Assembly (NCBI GenBank): GCA_016873935.1
Contig: VGVT01000024.1
Span: 1 to 34,204 of the forward strand
From: Betaproteobacteria bacterium
GTDB lineage: Bacteria; Pseudomonadota; Gammaproteobacteria; Burkholderiales; Thiobacillaceae
DNA length: 34,204 bases
Reading direction: 5' to 3'
In this document: positions 22,008 to 29,298 of the stretch, in pieces
Position numbering within the stretch: the stretch's first letter is position 1
Layout of the letters: each line of letters opens with the position of its first letter
Translations under genes and position numbers: made by a program
Notes under the pieces: generated by a model
Database searches by the model: none
What the model saw: only the letters and a program-made list of their open reading frames with translations
Told to the model about the DNA's origin: nothing

Positions 22008-22289
22008 TTACCAACCCCGCCCGCCGCGATGGCGGTGGCCCAGGGCGTCCAGCAATTCAGCCTCATCGATGCGGCCGTCCTGGTCGGCATCCAGTGTGGC
22101 GAAAGGCAGCAGCGCCGCCTTGCAGCGTTCTCCCCGGCGCTCGGCGCAATGCGCGCGCAGGGCCTCGTACTCGGCGCGGCTCAGCGTGCCGTCGCGATCC
22201 AGATCGTGCACCGAGAATACGTTTGGGGAGGCGGCACCGGCCAGGCCGGTGACGGCGACCAGACCGACCCACGCAAGCAAAGGCTTCAT
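22008..22289 (-). CDS. Secreted EF-hand calcium-binding protein
   Basis: A 93-residue protein. The signal peptide MKPLLAWVGLVAVTGLAGA is followed by two EF-hand loops, DLDRDGTLSRAE near 32-43 and DADQDGRIDEAE near 69-80, with the Asp-x-Asp-x-Asp-Gly spacing and terminal Glu needed for Ca2+. A Cys pair (AHCAERRGERCKA) lies between them. The C-terminus is His/Arg/Gly-rich. The ATG overlaps the hydrogenase-cytochrome stop (ATGA), so the two are translationally coupled and may work together in the periplasm. Confidence 0.87.
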   Translation of the reverse strand: MKPLLAWVGLVAVTGLAGAASPNVFSVHDLDRDGTLSRAEYEALRAHCAERRGERCKAALLPFATLDADQDGRIDEAELLDALGHRHRGGRGW

Positions 22290-23437
22290 CGCTTCTCCTT
22301 CAGATAATCCACCAGGGCGCGCAGGTCGTCCTCCTCCAGGGGGAAGCGGTGCGCGCGGATGCGGTCGGAACGCAGCAGTTCCGGCACCTGCTCGGGGAGG
22401 GCGCGCAGTTGTGCGGGATCGGCGTCGTGGCAATAGACGCACTGGCTGTCGTAGACCCGTGCGCCACGCTCGACGGTGGTGGCCTTCTTGTCGGCGACAG
22501 GCAAGGCCGCGGGCGCCAGGGCCTGGTAGAAGCCGCCCCGGTCCCAGAACCCCGGCTCGGCGCAGCCCAGGCAGGGGTGGCCGGATTCGACCGGATTGCC
22601 GACACCGTTCCAGCGCACGCTGGAACAGGCGTTGCGCGTCAGCGGCCCCTTGCAGCCCAGTTCCAGCAGACACCAGCCGGTGCGCGCGCCGTCATCGTCA
22701 AAGGTTTTCGCGAAACGTCCCGCCTCGAAATGGCCCCGGCGCGAACACCGCTCGTGCACGGTCTCTCCGTAGAAGGCCAGCGGCCGGCCGTTGTCGTCCA
22801 GGGGTGGGAAGCCGCCAAAGACGACACGATGCGCCAGGGCCGCGCTCATCACTTCCGGAATGGGCGGACAGCCGGGCAGGTTCACCAGCGGCCGGCGCGG
22901 TACCAGGCCCCGCTCCATCATTTCGCCCACACCCAGTGCGCCGGTGGGGTTCGGCGCGGCGGCGGGCAGGCCGCCGAATGCGGCGCAGGTGCCCACCGCC
23001 AGTACCGCTTGCGCGGCTTCCACGCAGCGCCGCAGCAAGCTCAGGTTGTCCTCGCCGGCAATGGTGGAACAGGCGCCCGCCAGGGCGGTGGGCACGGAAC
23101 CGTCCACCACCAGCAGCAATTCGCCGGCATGCGCCCGCAGCGTCGCCTCCCGCGCCGCCTCCGCCGCCTCGCCGGAGGCGGCTTGCAGGGTGTGGTGATA
23201 GTCCAGCGACAGCCACTCGAACAACAGGCTTTCCATGGAGGGCGCCGCCGAACGGGTGAGGGATTCGGTGCAGCCGGTGCATGCCTGGAAGGACAGCCAG
23301 ATCACCGGCAGGCGCCGTCCCGCGCGCAGCCCCTCCGCCAGCAGGCGGGCCGCGCCCGGCGGCAGCGCCAGCAGCGAGGCGGTGACGGCGCAGAACTTGA
23401 GGAATCTCCGCCGACCGAGGCGGCTTGCGATGTCCAT
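22286..23437 (-). CDS. [NiFe]-hydrogenase small subunit fused to a C-terminal cytochrome c domain; no large subunit nearby
   Basis: A 383-residue protein; ATG 23437 is preceded by GGAG at 5 bases. A Tat signal (GRRRFLKF, residues 8-15) indicates export folded with cofactors. All cluster ligands of uptake-hydrogenase small subunits are present: proximal Cys53, Cys56 (ACTGCTES), Cys151 and Cys190 (NLPGCPP); distal His228, Cys231, Cys256 and Cys262; medial [3Fe-4S] Cys271, Cys289 and Cys292 with Pro282. Gly55 and Gly156 stand where O2-tolerant enzymes have extra cysteines, so the proximal cluster should be the standard 4Fe-4S type. In place of the usual membrane helix there is a c-haem motif CVYCH at 333-337 and a cytochrome c tail (FPLEEDDLRALVDYLKEK). 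No Met sits at the usual sixth-ligand site; a nearby His could serve. No large-subunit or maturation gene is in the window. Confidence 0.88.
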   Translation of the reverse strand: MDIASRLGRRRFLKFCAVTASLLALPPGAARLLAEGLRAGRRLPVIWLSFQACTGCTESLTRSAAPSMESLLFEWLSLDYHHTLQAASGEAAEAAREATLRAHAGELLLVVDGSVPTALAGACSTIAGEDNLSLLRRCVEAAQAVLAVGTCAAFGGLPAAAPNPTGALGVGEMMERGLVPRRPLVNLPGCPPIPEVMSAALAHRVVFGGFPPLDDNGRPLAFYGETVHERCSRRGHFEAGRFAKTFDDDGARTGWCLLELGCKGPLTRNACSSVRWNGVGNPVESGHPCLGCAEPGFWDRGGFYQALAPAALPVADKKATTVERGARVYDSQCVYCHDADPAQLRALPEQVPELLRSDRIRAHRFPLEEDDLRALVDYLKEKR

Positions 23438-23453
23438 CTTCACTCCGGCAAAC

Positions 23454-23480: not shown

Positions 23481-23801
23481 TCACTTCACGAAGCCGCGCG
23501 CCCGCATCTGCTCGCAGGCATCGCGGCGTGGTTCGTTGAGGACGACACCCTGTTCCTTGGCGCGGGCCTGCAGGGTGGCACGATGTTCGGCGCGCAAGGC
23601 CTTGCATTCATCATAGGTCTTCGCGGCCCACATCCGGTTCTGGAATTCGCTGCGTTCGGCGGGGGTCATCAGGGTCCAGCCGGGGGTGTTGTCCTGCTGG
23701 AAGCGATAACGGCCGGGCGCGGCCTCGGCGGCGATCGCTCCGCCCAGCGCCGTCGCCACGGCGACGCTGGCGAGGAGGAATCTGTATGGCAGCTTGCTCA
23801 T
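23481..23801 (-). CDS. Small secreted two-cysteine protein, unknown function
   Basis: 106 residues from ATG 23801, chosen because AAGGAG lies 6 bases upstream. A signal peptide (LPYRFLLASVAVATALGGAI, cleavage near AEA) precedes an acidic/basic helical domain with MTPAERSEFQNRMWAAKTYDECKAL, RAEHRATLQARAKEQGVVL and RRDACEQMRARGF (each a separate segment). The pattern TxxECxxxRxEH...RAxExG...Cxxm is one I associate with small periplasmic proteins of betaproteobacteria, but I know of no assigned function. The two Cys may form a disulfide and so be a substrate of the adjacent thiol-redox proteins. Confidence 0.75.
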   Translation of the reverse strand: MSKLPYRFLLASVAVATALGGAIAAEAAPGRYRFQQDNTPGWTLMTPAERSEFQNRMWAAKTYDECKALRAEHRATLQARAKEQGVVLNEPRRDACEQMRARGFVK

Positions 23802-23945
23802 GCTCATCTCCTTGAAGGTTGGTGAAGGGGAGAAAGCGTCTCGCGGACTCTTGTCTCCTGATTCCATTCAAGGCCATGCGGGGAGTACGAACGTATCAAT
23901 GTGTGAGCAATTGTTACCGGGGCGTTGCGCGGCGAGGCGGCGGCC

Positions 23946-25199
23946 TCAGGCCTGAGGTTCGCGCGTCAGCCGCGCCGCCAGCCAGGTCAGGCCGACCGCC
24001 ACCGCCATCAGGGCGAAGGCGATGCCCACGCGGCTGACGAGTTGGGGGGCGAACAGCAACAGGCCGCCCAGGCCCAGCATCATCAGGCCCGACATCAGCT
24101 TCAGCAGTCGCCCTTCCCGCTCGCTCAGCTTGCGCGCCCCCAGGGTGCGGACGAACAGCACGACGATCAGCGCCAGCGGCACCACGTAGATCAGGTTGTA
24201 GGCGGCGAGATAGCCGTAGCGCGCGGCGACCGGCAGATCCGCCAGGGTCAGCAGCCGCGTGTAGACCATGGGGAAGCCGGCGGTGCACAGCAGTTCGTAG
24301 AAATTCGCGGCGATGGCCAGGAACAGGGTGGCGCCCAACATGGCCGGCAGGTTCTCGGCGTTGAGGATGGCGCGGGCGCGGCGGAACAGATCCGGCTTGC
24401 GCGAGGCGGGGATCGACAGGGTGAGGCCCCGCTCGAACAGGAAGAAGTCCTTCACGTTCACCACGCCGACGAACACCGCCAGGGCGCCGGCGGCCAGGGT
24501 CACCCAGGCGAGGTGGCCGAAGAGCTGGAAGACGTTGAGCCAGGCCGCCATGAAGGCGAAGTACATGAGCCCGGAAACCAGCACGAAGACGCCGCCGATG
24601 ATCAGCATGCGGGCGCGGCTTTTCTGGTGGGCCATCATCGACAGCAGGAAAAGCAGGACGAAGAAGGCGCAGGGATTGAAGGCGTCCAGCCCGGCCAGGA
24701 TCAGGGTGAGGGCCGGCAGCGACAGGCGGTTCGGGTCGAGTTCGCCCAGCAGGGGCAGGCGCAGGCTCTGTGGCGCCCGCGCCGGCGGCGTCACCGCCGC
24801 GCCGGCGGCCACCCGCGCGTGGCAGGCATCGAGCCGCTGGCGCAGGTAGGCGCCGGTGCTGGCGTCACTGTCCCAGCCCACCACCATCTCGCCGCAGAAC
24901 AGGAAGGCCGGCACCGATGCCGCCTCACCCCCAACCTGCGCGGCGAGAGCCCGATACAGGCGGACGTGGTCCGCGTGCCGCGTCAGTTCGAGGTCGTGCA
25001 GGCGCAGCCAGGGCCGCCCGCGCGGCAGGGCCTCGACGTGGGGATGCGCCTCGGTGCAGTGCGGGCAGGTCAGCGCCCAGAAGAAATAGAGTTGCACCTC
25101 CGCCCCGCCGCTCGGCCCGGCACGCACCCACACGTCCTCGGCGCGGCCGGCCAGGGCACACAGGGCCAGTACCAGGAAAAGCAGAACGCGCGGGAACAT
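23946..25199 (-). CDS. CcdA/DsbD-like membrane thiol transporter with N-terminal thioredoxin domain
   Basis: A 417-residue protein. After a signal peptide (PRVLLFLVLALCALAGRA), a thioredoxin-fold domain with FFWALTCPHCTEAHPHVEAL (Cys45, Cys48) runs to about 150. Six to eight membrane helices of the CcdA/DsbD type follow, with the intramembrane Cys pair in LDAFNPCAFFVLLF and FYELLCTAGFP. This class carries reducing equivalents from cytoplasmic thioredoxin to periplasmic thiols. Domain order is unusual: DsbD has its thioredoxin domain after the membrane part. It is the first gene of the leftward block with the hydrogenase-cytochrome fusion and may serve cytochrome c maturation. Confidence 0.85.
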   Translation of the reverse strand: MFPRVLLFLVLALCALAGRAEDVWVRAGPSGGAEVQLYFFWALTCPHCTEAHPHVEALPRGRPWLRLHDLELTRHADHVRLYRALAAQVGGEAASVPAFLFCGEMVVGWDSDASTGAYLRQRLDACHARVAAGAAVTPPARAPQSLRLPLLGELDPNRLSLPALTLILAGLDAFNPCAFFVLLFLLSMMAHQKSRARMLIIGGVFVLVSGLMYFAFMAAWLNVFQLFGHLAWVTLAAGALAVFVGVVNVKDFFLFERGLTLSIPASRKPDLFRRARAILNAENLPAMLGATLFLAIAANFYELLCTAGFPMVYTRLLTLADLPVAARYGYLAAYNLIYVVPLALIVVLFVRTLGARKLSEREGRLLKLMSGLMMLGLGGLLLFAPQLVSRVGIAFALMAVAVGLTWLAARLTREPQA

Positions 25200-27937: not shown

Positions 27938-28852
27938 TCATTGCGACTCGAACCGCACGAAGGCGCGGCTCATGTTGCCGCGATGCAGTTCGTCGTAGTT
28001 TTGCAGATGGCGGAAGGCCGGCAGGTCGGCGTATTTCGCCAGCGTCTCGTCGAGCGGTTCCATGTCGCGCGCGGCCGGGGCGATGTGCTCGATCAGGAAG
28101 TCGTAATAGTCGCCGGATTCGCGACGCGCTTGCGCCAGATCGGTGACGCGGCCGTGGCCGGGCACCACGCGTTTCGGCGCCAGCGCTTCCAGCGCCTGGA
28201 AGGCGCGCTGGCCGGCGCGCACATCCGACTCCGGCAGCACGCCGAGCAGACGGTCGACGTAGACCAGGTCGCCGGTGAAGACGACCCCGTGGTCAGGCAG
28301 CCAGACCATGGCGTCGCCGGGGTAGTGCGTATCCGTATAACGCAGTTCCACACGCGCGCCACCCAGGGTCAGGGCGGCCGCGTCACCGGCCAACGCGCGC
28401 GCCGCCGGCAGCGCTTGCGTGCCGGCCAGCCGCTCGCCGAGGAAACGTTTCAACCCTTCGAGCTGCTGCGCGCCATTGCGCGCCTGGCCCTCGGCGGTGC
28501 GCGCCAGGGCGATGATCTGCGCGCCCTGTTCGGCGAACCAGCCGTTGCCCAGCCAGCGGTGGTCCTGGCCGCCGGTGTTGATCACCCAGCGCACCGGCCG
28601 CTCGGTGACGGCGCGGATGGCCGCCGCCAGCTTTTGCGCGCCCAGCGCGCTGGCGCCGGAATCGATGAGGATCACCCCCTCGGCGGTGACGACGAAGCCG
28701 TAATTGGCGTTGAGGCCATCGTTATCGGCGCTGCGCTGGCCGAGCGGACCGACGATGGCGTAGACGTTGTCCGCCACCGGCTCGGCCTTGGGCGTGTAGG
28801 CGTGGGCGGGCAGCAGGAACATGGCAAGTACCAGGGCGAACAGGGCTCTCAT
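27938..28852 (-). CDS. Periplasmic metallo-beta-lactamase-fold protein with altered metal motif
   Basis: 304 residues from ATG 28852 with GAGG 6 bases upstream. The signal peptide is MRALFALVLAMFLLPAHA. The MBL fold is seen in LNANYGFVVTAEGVILIDSG, THYPGDAMVWLPDHGVVFTG, GDLVYVDRLLG and VVPGHGRVTDL. Where the family has HxHxDH, this protein has INTGGQDHRWLGN: Asp-His remain but the first two metal His are missing. It resembles the quinoprotein relay zinc metallohydrolase/SoxH-like group, found with periplasmic quinoproteins and cytochromes. The activity is unknown. It lies 8 bases after a cytochrome c'-like gene. Confidence 0.82.
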   Translation of the reverse strand: MRALFALVLAMFLLPAHAYTPKAEPVADNVYAIVGPLGQRSADNDGLNANYGFVVTAEGVILIDSGASALGAQKLAAAIRAVTERPVRWVINTGGQDHRWLGNGWFAEQGAQIIALARTAEGQARNGAQQLEGLKRFLGERLAGTQALPAARALAGDAAALTLGGARVELRYTDTHYPGDAMVWLPDHGVVFTGDLVYVDRLLGVLPESDVRAGQRAFQALEALAPKRVVPGHGRVTDLAQARRESGDYYDFLIEHIAPAARDMEPLDETLAKYADLPAFRHLQNYDELHRGNMSRAFVRFESQ

Positions 28853-28860
28853 GGCGGACC

Positions 28861-29298
28861 TCACTGGATGCGGTAGGCGGCGTGGCAGGCCACGCATTGG
28901 GCGGTGACTTCGGCGAGCGCGGCGACGGCGCGGGCCAGGTCGCGGTCGACGCCGGCCTCCTGGGCGCTGACCGCGAAACGGCTGGCGGCGCGGTGCATGG
29001 CGGTGCCGGTCGCGCGCATGCCCGGCGGCATCACCCCCGCCATGTGGCTGGCGCCATGCGATTCCAGCGAGGACATGCCCAGGCGCTGCTCGGCGACGCG
29101 CGCCGCGGTTTCGTAGTCACCGCGCGCCATGGCCGCCTGGATTTCATGCACGGCGAGCAGGTGGTCGCGCATGTTGGCGCGCATGTGGGCCTGCATCCTG
29201 GGGGGCATCTTCACCAGCTCGCGCTCGTCCGCGAGGGCTGGCGGTGTCGTCGCCAGCAGGAGGGCGGCGATGGGGAGGAAGAGGACGGGGTGGCGCAT
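28861..29298 (-). CDS. Cytochrome c'-like (class II) periplasmic protein
   Basis: 145 residues from ATG 29298 with AGGAG 6 bases upstream; the frame continues further up but without a signal peptide. The signal MRHPVLFLPIAALLLATTPPALA precedes a helical, Met- and His-rich chain with the haem motif CVACH only ten residues from the C-terminus, the place it takes in four-helix cytochromes c' and b562-like c cytochromes. It may bind NO or carry electrons. Its neighbour is the MBL-fold protein, probably co-transcribed. A 129-base gap separates it from the upstream aquaporin. Confidence 0.78.
   Translation of the reverse strand: MRHPVLFLPIAALLLATTPPALADERELVKMPPRMQAHMRANMRDHLLAVHEIQAAMARGDYETAARVAEQRLGMSSLESHGASHMAGVMPPGMRATGTAMHRAASRFAVSAQEAGVDRDLARAVAALAEVTAQCVACHAAYRIQ

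Follow-up and report, generated by a model that had tools for sequence, protein, structure and literature searches.

A haem-fused [NiFe]-hydrogenase small subunit with an EF-hand partner, a candidate alternative small subunit for HynL

A gene for a [NiFe]-hydrogenase small subunit that ends in a mono-haem cytochrome c domain (the fusion), together with the EF-hand gene behind it, forms a conserved gene pair and is not an accident. We analysed this pair in the window, that is, the whole stretch of 34,204 nucleotides of DNA under study, and in the other genomes in which it was found. By its domains, its Fe-S ligands and its twin-arginine motif, the predicted protein is a Tat-type group 1 [NiFe]-hydrogenase small subunit. 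On balance, we lean towards the view that it is a second, alternative small subunit for the large subunit HynL, with which it would form a soluble, cytochrome c-linked hydrogenase.

The fusion protein and its haem domain

The reading frame of the fusion starts with an ATG at position 23437 (alternative GTG at 23443), stops at 22286-22288 and contains no internal stop codon. Its features are collected in Table 1. Both hydrogenase domains scored above their Pfam cut-offs, and the NCBIfam model TIGR00391 (hydA) matched the protein with 360 bits against a cut-off of 179.5. The best match of known structure was the small subunit HydA of 3myr, presumably from Allochromatium vinosum, which aligned over residues 41-307. 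An earlier note on this DNA, made from the letters alone, had claimed that every Fe-S ligand of a Tat-exported uptake small subunit is kept. Indeed, all 11 ligands are present (C53, C56, C151 and C190; H228, C231, C256 and C262; C271, C289 and C292) and invariant in 16 aligned fusions. We assume this allotment of the ligands to individual clusters, and we take the PF01058 domain with the proximal cluster to be the side that faces the large subunit. The arginine pair of the twin-arginine motif was invariant across 29 aligned small subunits, and the motif marks the protein for putative export.

Table 1. Coordinates of the fusion gene, its parts and its direct neighbours in the window
Feature	Position	Strand	Evidence
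Fusion gene: Tat signal, group 1 [NiFe]-hydrogenase small subunit and mono-haem c domain	22286..23437	-	383 aa; Pfam and NCBIfam profiles; 16 further homologues with the same domain order
Twin-arginine motif RRRFLK, residues 9-14	23396..23413	-	Read from the translation
PF01058 domain, proximal cluster, residues 53-203	22829..23281	-	Pfam, 87.9 bits; ligands C53, C56, C151 and C190 invariant
PF14720 domain, distal and medial clusters, residues 223-302	22532..22771	-	Pfam, 101.8 bits; Ser232 follows distal Cys231, Tyr in HynS
Mono-haem c domain, residues 320-383, replacing the C-terminal hydrophobic stretch of HynS	22289..22480	-	Pfam below cut-off, alignment and model
Haem attachment motif CVYCH, residues 333-337	22427..22441	-	Translation; CxxCH invariant in 16 fusions
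His363, candidate sixth haem ligand in place of Met	22349..22351	-	Invariant in 16/16 fusions, also in the 17th (L139)
EF-hand protein, 93 aa, hydrophobic N-terminal segment, two loops	22008..22289	-	Pfam PF00036, 36.6 against a cut-off of 25.4
Small secreted-looking protein directly upstream of the fusion	23481..23867	-	No Pfam match

The same note had described a mono-haem c domain in place of the usual membrane helix, and both parts of this description held. The highest Kyte-Doolittle hydropathy of the tail (19-residue maximum) was at most 0.45 in 16/16 fusions, compared to 1.21-2.14 in 13/13 HynS. Two Pfam cytochrome models matched the haem domain below their cut-offs, namely, PF13442 at residues 322-356 (20.6 versus 27) and PF00034 (17.8 versus 21.3), and a profile of the domain matched CcoP and QcrC-type chains, chiefly in the region of the haem motif. 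A structure model of the fusion (mean pLDDT 65, pTM 0.60) placed helices at residues 321-333, 348-356 and 369-382. The CxxCH motif with its preceding helix and the C-terminal helix would thus be consistent, in the model, with a class I cytochrome c.

In class I cytochromes c, the Met ligand normally lies in the loop before the last helix. No Met is conserved in the haem domains of the 16 aligned fusions, in agreement with the remark in the earlier note that the usual sixth ligand is missing and a His is nearby. This His, His363, is placed by the model in the loop ahead of the C-terminal helix, a region of low confidence (pLDDT below 50 at residues 359-364). Given the low quality of the model, His/His haem ligation through His363 is put forward as a proposal.

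Conservation, surroundings and ancestry of the gene pair

After removal of overlaps, 17 fusion genes were found in 16 genomes, one of which is a single-contig genome (G229). This argues against a frameshift or an assembly join at about positions 22500-22550, which the earlier note had considered as a source of the fusion, and answers its suggestion to look for the same domain order elsewhere with 16 further homologues. In the genome-contig scan, 4 of 19 loci matched through the haem domain, with identities of 91% (L013), 82% (L014), 57% (L015) and 56% (L021). Genome G004 holds two fusion-EF-hand loci (L050 and L021). Profile searches found carriers of the fusion among 6/101 relatives, 8/369 genomes of the class and 3/54 genomes of the order of G241; among 398 genomes of the phylum, with the best four candidates per genome scored, the window's own genome was the single carrier. 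The fusion is patchy even within the genus, where 4/23 genomes of the relatives sample carry it. Duplicate genomes were merged by identical coordinates (G001 = G019 and G002 = G057), and G437, with a match of 519 bits that stops at residue 329, was counted as HynS and left out of the fusions. Plasmid records gave 104 matches, the best 10 of which stop short of the haem motif, at query residues 307-311; on this ground, we rejected carriage of the fusion on plasmids.

The start of the EF-hand gene overlaps the stop of the fusion by 4 bp (ATGA) at position 22289, so that the EF-hand protein is indeed the immediate neighbour, as the earlier note had it. An EF-hand gene lies downstream of 17/17 fusion genes, intact in 16 and decayed in 1 (G449). 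Fourteen of these neighbours were located by script, that of G057 by reading frames and that of L139 separately, besides the decayed one. The Pfam EF-hand cut-off was passed by 14/16 intact partners, and those of G312 and G188 were judged by the loop motif only. At the G449 locus (L079), the EF-hand frames are broken directly downstream of an intact fusion gene, suggesting that the partner may be dispensable there. In G025, a broken second small-subunit fragment (L075:3261-3494) that matches query residues 44-121 lies behind the EF-hand gene. Decay of the EF-hand gene in the one genome and of the second copy in the other indicates that the fusion locus can decay.

Neither the window nor any of the other 16 stretches around fusions gave a homologue of HynL, Isp1 or Isp2, while three positive-control loci were detected. 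The stretches range from 4.1 to 34.2 kb (4.1 to 21.2 kb for those other than the window), with short flanks in L139 (4.1 kb) and L075 (6.7 kb). The statement of the earlier note that its 34 kb hold no large subunit was therefore borne out, and the ordinary arrangement with an adjacent large subunit, which it had envisaged for close relatives, was found in none of the 17 stretches.

Other neighbours vary. Homologues of the small secreted-looking protein lie upstream of the fusion in G019, G025 and G022, which belong to the same genus, and are absent from the other 13 stretches. NnrS genes lie near three fusion loci (L078, L080 and, by sight, L079), with a Crp/Fnr-type regulator in L078, and MoaA-type genes lie near two (L077 and, by sight, L076); such neighbours possibly point to a setting of nitrogen-oxide respiration. 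When the FNR-type palindrome consensus was used for the upstream regions, one exact palindrome was found in 16 of them (G258) and no close match in the window, and an FNR-type anaerobic promoter is not claimed. The window also encodes, on the minus strand, a 417-aa protein with a CPHC motif and hydrophobic segments that gave no Pfam or NCBIfam match (23946-25199), and a metallohydrolase that resembles, below the curated cut-off, the SoxH-related quinoprotein relay type (27938-28897).

The tree and the alignments were made without L139, which was found later, and include 16 fusions; 4 of the 16 extra loci for the tree (L018, L019, L022 and L029) were removed by a motif filter. The fusions form one clade (support 96/91) beside HynS. 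In a tree conflict test over 13 genomes, with clades named after viewing the trees, the HynS data rejected the fusion clade (p 0.006) and the reverse test was borderline (p 0.046); the histories of the fusion and of HynS are not identical. The clade nearest to the fusions consists of L017 (Thiohalocapsa) and L020 (Ca. Ferrigenium), long-branched small subunits in two-gene operons with the large subunit directly downstream, and its place is unsure because both are long branches that join. These two share a 5-residue insertion with the fusions but, unlike them, lack the haem motif. In L020 (Ca. Ferrigenium straubiae), the adjacent small-large pair is followed by an 861-aa reading frame with one CxxCH (L020:9956-12798).

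Sites invariant in HynS were kept in at least 13/16 fusions at 61/71 positions in residues 41-203, compared to 45/63 in residues 204-305. This contrast is not significant (Fisher p 0.055), which we count against a pairing with HynL. A marked change concerns residue 232, directly after the distal Cys231, which is Ser in 15 fusions and Pro in 1, compared to Tyr in 13/13 HynS. In an unsystematic sample of known structures, this site is Tyr in membrane-linked HoxK (5mdj, CYRR) and in 3myr and Pro in Desulfovibrio vulgaris (1h2a, CPRL). Also near the distal cluster, Pro235 of HynS is replaced by Gly, His or Arg and Asp238 by Glu, Gln or Lys. Pro288 (GHPC) does not separate the groups, as it is found in 15/16 fusions and 3/13 HynS. 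Taken together, the retained proximal domain and the changed tail and distal surface suggest that the side towards the large subunit was kept while the anchor and the electron exit were rebuilt. Over six genome pairs, dN/dS ranged from 0.06 to 0.21 for the Fe-S domains and from 0.09 to 0.35 for the haem domain, and the fusion gene is under purifying selection in all six. In five pairs, dN/dS of the fusion was higher than that of HynS in 8/10 domain comparisons, some of them with saturated synonymous change, and this excess also counts against a pairing with HynL.

Hydrogenases of the fusion genomes and known relatives

The genome of the window (2.70 Mb, 121 contigs, 98% complete) carries a complete hynS-isp1-isp2-hynL operon on contig C47. 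Four more pairs were found in it, namely, another group 1 pair with a HoxK-like small subunit and one pair each on C1, C15 and C78, of which the C1 pair lies next to a PAS histidine kinase. On C19, a small-subunit-type match, which we take to be NuoB-like, adjoins a large-subunit match below the cut-off. Of the seven small-subunit-type matches in this genome, the fusion alone has no large-subunit-type match beside it. Another large-subunit match on C1 (60079-60321) lies in a 494-aa protein (L042:10865-12349), spans no more than the final 85 positions of the profile and lacks a neighbouring small subunit; we assume that the protein is an accessory one of the HupK/HoxV type. Contig C1 also carries hypB, hypC and hypF, and the cytochrome c assembly family PF01578 is represented by three matches on C29 and C2.

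The earlier note had proposed a genome-wide search for a group 1 large subunit and hyp genes, and had left a choice between a large subunit encoded elsewhere, with which the fusion would form a soluble cytochrome-linked hydrogenase, and a stand-alone electron wire. A large subunit of the kind that its former option requires exists, in the form of HynL on C47. What it did not foresee is that the full-size large subunits already have small subunits of their own, so the fusion would be an alternative small subunit and not a missing half. Its former option is the one we favour, because the hyn operon lies on another contig, hypB, hypC, hypF and PF01578 matches are present, and fusions occur, with one exception, only where HynS is seen; the wire appears less likely.

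Indeed, a separate HynS-type small subunit was found in 15/16 fusion genomes. In the exception, G057, an 84% complete bin, we found neither HynS nor HynL, which counts against pairing with HynL. HynL is present in 12/15 fusion genomes searched (all except G874). It is split over two contigs in G003, was not seen in G022, whose contig breaks off some 550 bases past Isp2, and was not recognised in G312. In the single-contig genome G229 and in G241, G463 and G036, HynL is the sole match over the whole PF00374 profile. By the coordinates of the record, HynL of G229 lies about 1.9 Mb from the fusion, with its own HynS, Isp1 and Isp2.

In the class sample, 8/8 fusion genomes, which represent six families, carry a separate HynS-type match, compared to at least 42/369 genomes overall (Fisher p 1.5e-8, kinship ignored). 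These counts are lower bounds, as scoring was limited to the five best candidates per genome; HynS-type was assigned by score, with a cut-off set after the search of the 101 relatives. In the order of G241, HynS was found in 3/3 fusion genomes and in 21/54 overall, and two of these three are also among the eight of the class sample.

The hynS-isp1-isp2-hynL system is known from Acidithiobacillus and Thiocapsa (PMC7735108, PMC10892978). The fusion is like the group 1e HynS/HydS in its two domains, its 11 ligands and its Tat motif, and it is 50-54% identical to the 13 HynS of fusion genomes over the full alignment. It differs from HynS in its c-type haem tail, in the loss of the Tyr after the distal Cys, and in having an EF-hand gene instead of isp genes and hynL as neighbours. 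The gene order that marks the Isp-type members of group 1e is accordingly absent at its own locus and present at that of its C47 paralogue. In the other direction, the fusion resembles the periplasmic [NiFe]-hydrogenase of Desulfovibrio (1h2a), whose chain ends soon after the Fe-S domain and which also has a residue other than Tyr after the distal Cys. The periplasmic hydrogenases of Desulfovibrio are soluble and donate electrons to c-type cytochromes, which are separate proteins, whereas in the fusion the cytochrome is joined to the small subunit.

A comparable design is man-made. A small subunit of Alteromonas macleodii with a shortened tail is reported to have tolerated a C-terminal ferredoxin, with improved electron transfer (PMC4307346). 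As in the fusion, a redox carrier is tethered to the truncated C-terminus, near the region of electron transfer; unlike in the fusion, the carrier is a ferredoxin, not a haem c, and the small subunit is paired with its own HynL (PMC4307346). That the engineered tether worked suggests that the C-terminus of a small subunit is near enough to the electron exit (PMC4307346). Neither a haem-fused small subunit nor a large subunit with two small ones turned up in a literature search that was mostly confined to open-access papers.

Possible roles of the fusion

A retained large-subunit side, a lost anchor, a changed electron exit, an operon of its own and a dependence on genomes with Hyn are most simply accounted for by an alternative small subunit for HynL. 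The fusion would fold around its Fe-S clusters in the cytoplasm and pair there, in place of HynS, with matured HynL from the separate hynS-isp1-isp2-hynL operon. The pair would then leave by the Tat route, and the c-type haem would be added in the periplasm. Since the haem domain stands in place of the hydrophobic stretch, the proposed enzyme would be soluble. Electrons from H2 would pass from the NiFe site over the proximal, medial and distal clusters to the tethered, probably His/His-ligated, haem c and on to periplasmic carriers, while the alternative route through HynS would lead over Isp1/Isp2 to quinone. The EF-hand protein, whose gene may be co-transcribed with the fusion as one operon, could be a calcium-binding periplasmic partner with a part in stability or docking. 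Several points count against pairing with HynL. The fusions have the 5-residue insertion before the proximal ligand C190 relative to HynS, even if L020, a small subunit with an adjacent large subunit, has it as well. The Glu that precedes the first cluster Cys, and that we take to be part of a proposed proton path, is replaced by Ala in the window and its closest relative. Furthermore, attachment of haem to a folded Tat substrate is, to our knowledge, unusual.

The fusion could also be a former small subunit, permanently parted from its large subunit, that serves as a stand-alone periplasmic wire of four centres, three Fe-S clusters and the haem, with the EF-hand protein as a docking factor. 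Such a wire would explain why the fusion has a conserved operon of its own and no large subunit in any of its 17 stretches, why the full-size large subunits of the genome are already paired, and why dN/dS mostly exceeds that of HynS. It would have no need of HynS, yet nearly all fusion genomes have one, and the proximal-cluster ligands are invariant in a domain whose HynS-invariant sites are no less well kept than those elsewhere in the protein; we consider this reading unlikely. Slightly less likely still is an assembly or regulatory factor of Hyn that would contact HynL or HynS for a short time, or would read the redox state by way of Isp1/Isp2, and would form no catalytic H2:cytochrome c enzyme. 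Its co-occurrence with HynS and its separate, patchy locus would fit such an accessory role. So would the resemblance of Isp1 and Isp2 to TmcC/HmcE and DsrK/TmcB/HmcF, respectively (below curated cut-offs); Tmc/Hmc/Dsr-type complexes work with periplasmic c-type cytochromes. However, a complete set of electron-path ligands with an invariant haem motif is more than a chaperone or sensor needs, and 34 of the at least 42 class-sample genomes with a HynS-type match do without the fusion. The signs of decay in G449 and G025 could be read as those of a decaying duplicate or a mis-assembly, but 17 uninterrupted genes, the single clade formed by the 16 tested and the purifying selection make a relic or artefact highly improbable.

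The alternative small subunit would extend to a broader picture, which we advance tentatively, at somewhat less than even chances. One NiFe catalytic subunit would have two interchangeable small subunits, HynS, which connects it to the quinone pool via Isp1/Isp2, and the haem-carrying one, which makes it a soluble H2:cytochrome c oxidoreductase, and the cell would pick the destination of the electrons by the small subunit that it makes. The textbook picture of [NiFe]-hydrogenases is one of fixed pairs whose genes lie near each other. The fusion makes it possible to test whether one large subunit is common to two small subunits. It would also offer a model from nature for soluble hydrogenases wired to a cytochrome, a type that engineers have tried to obtain by fusion (PMC4307346). 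Overall, a conserved, free-standing, haem-fused small subunit would, if true, mean that the electron outlet of these enzymes is modular and exchangeable in nature.
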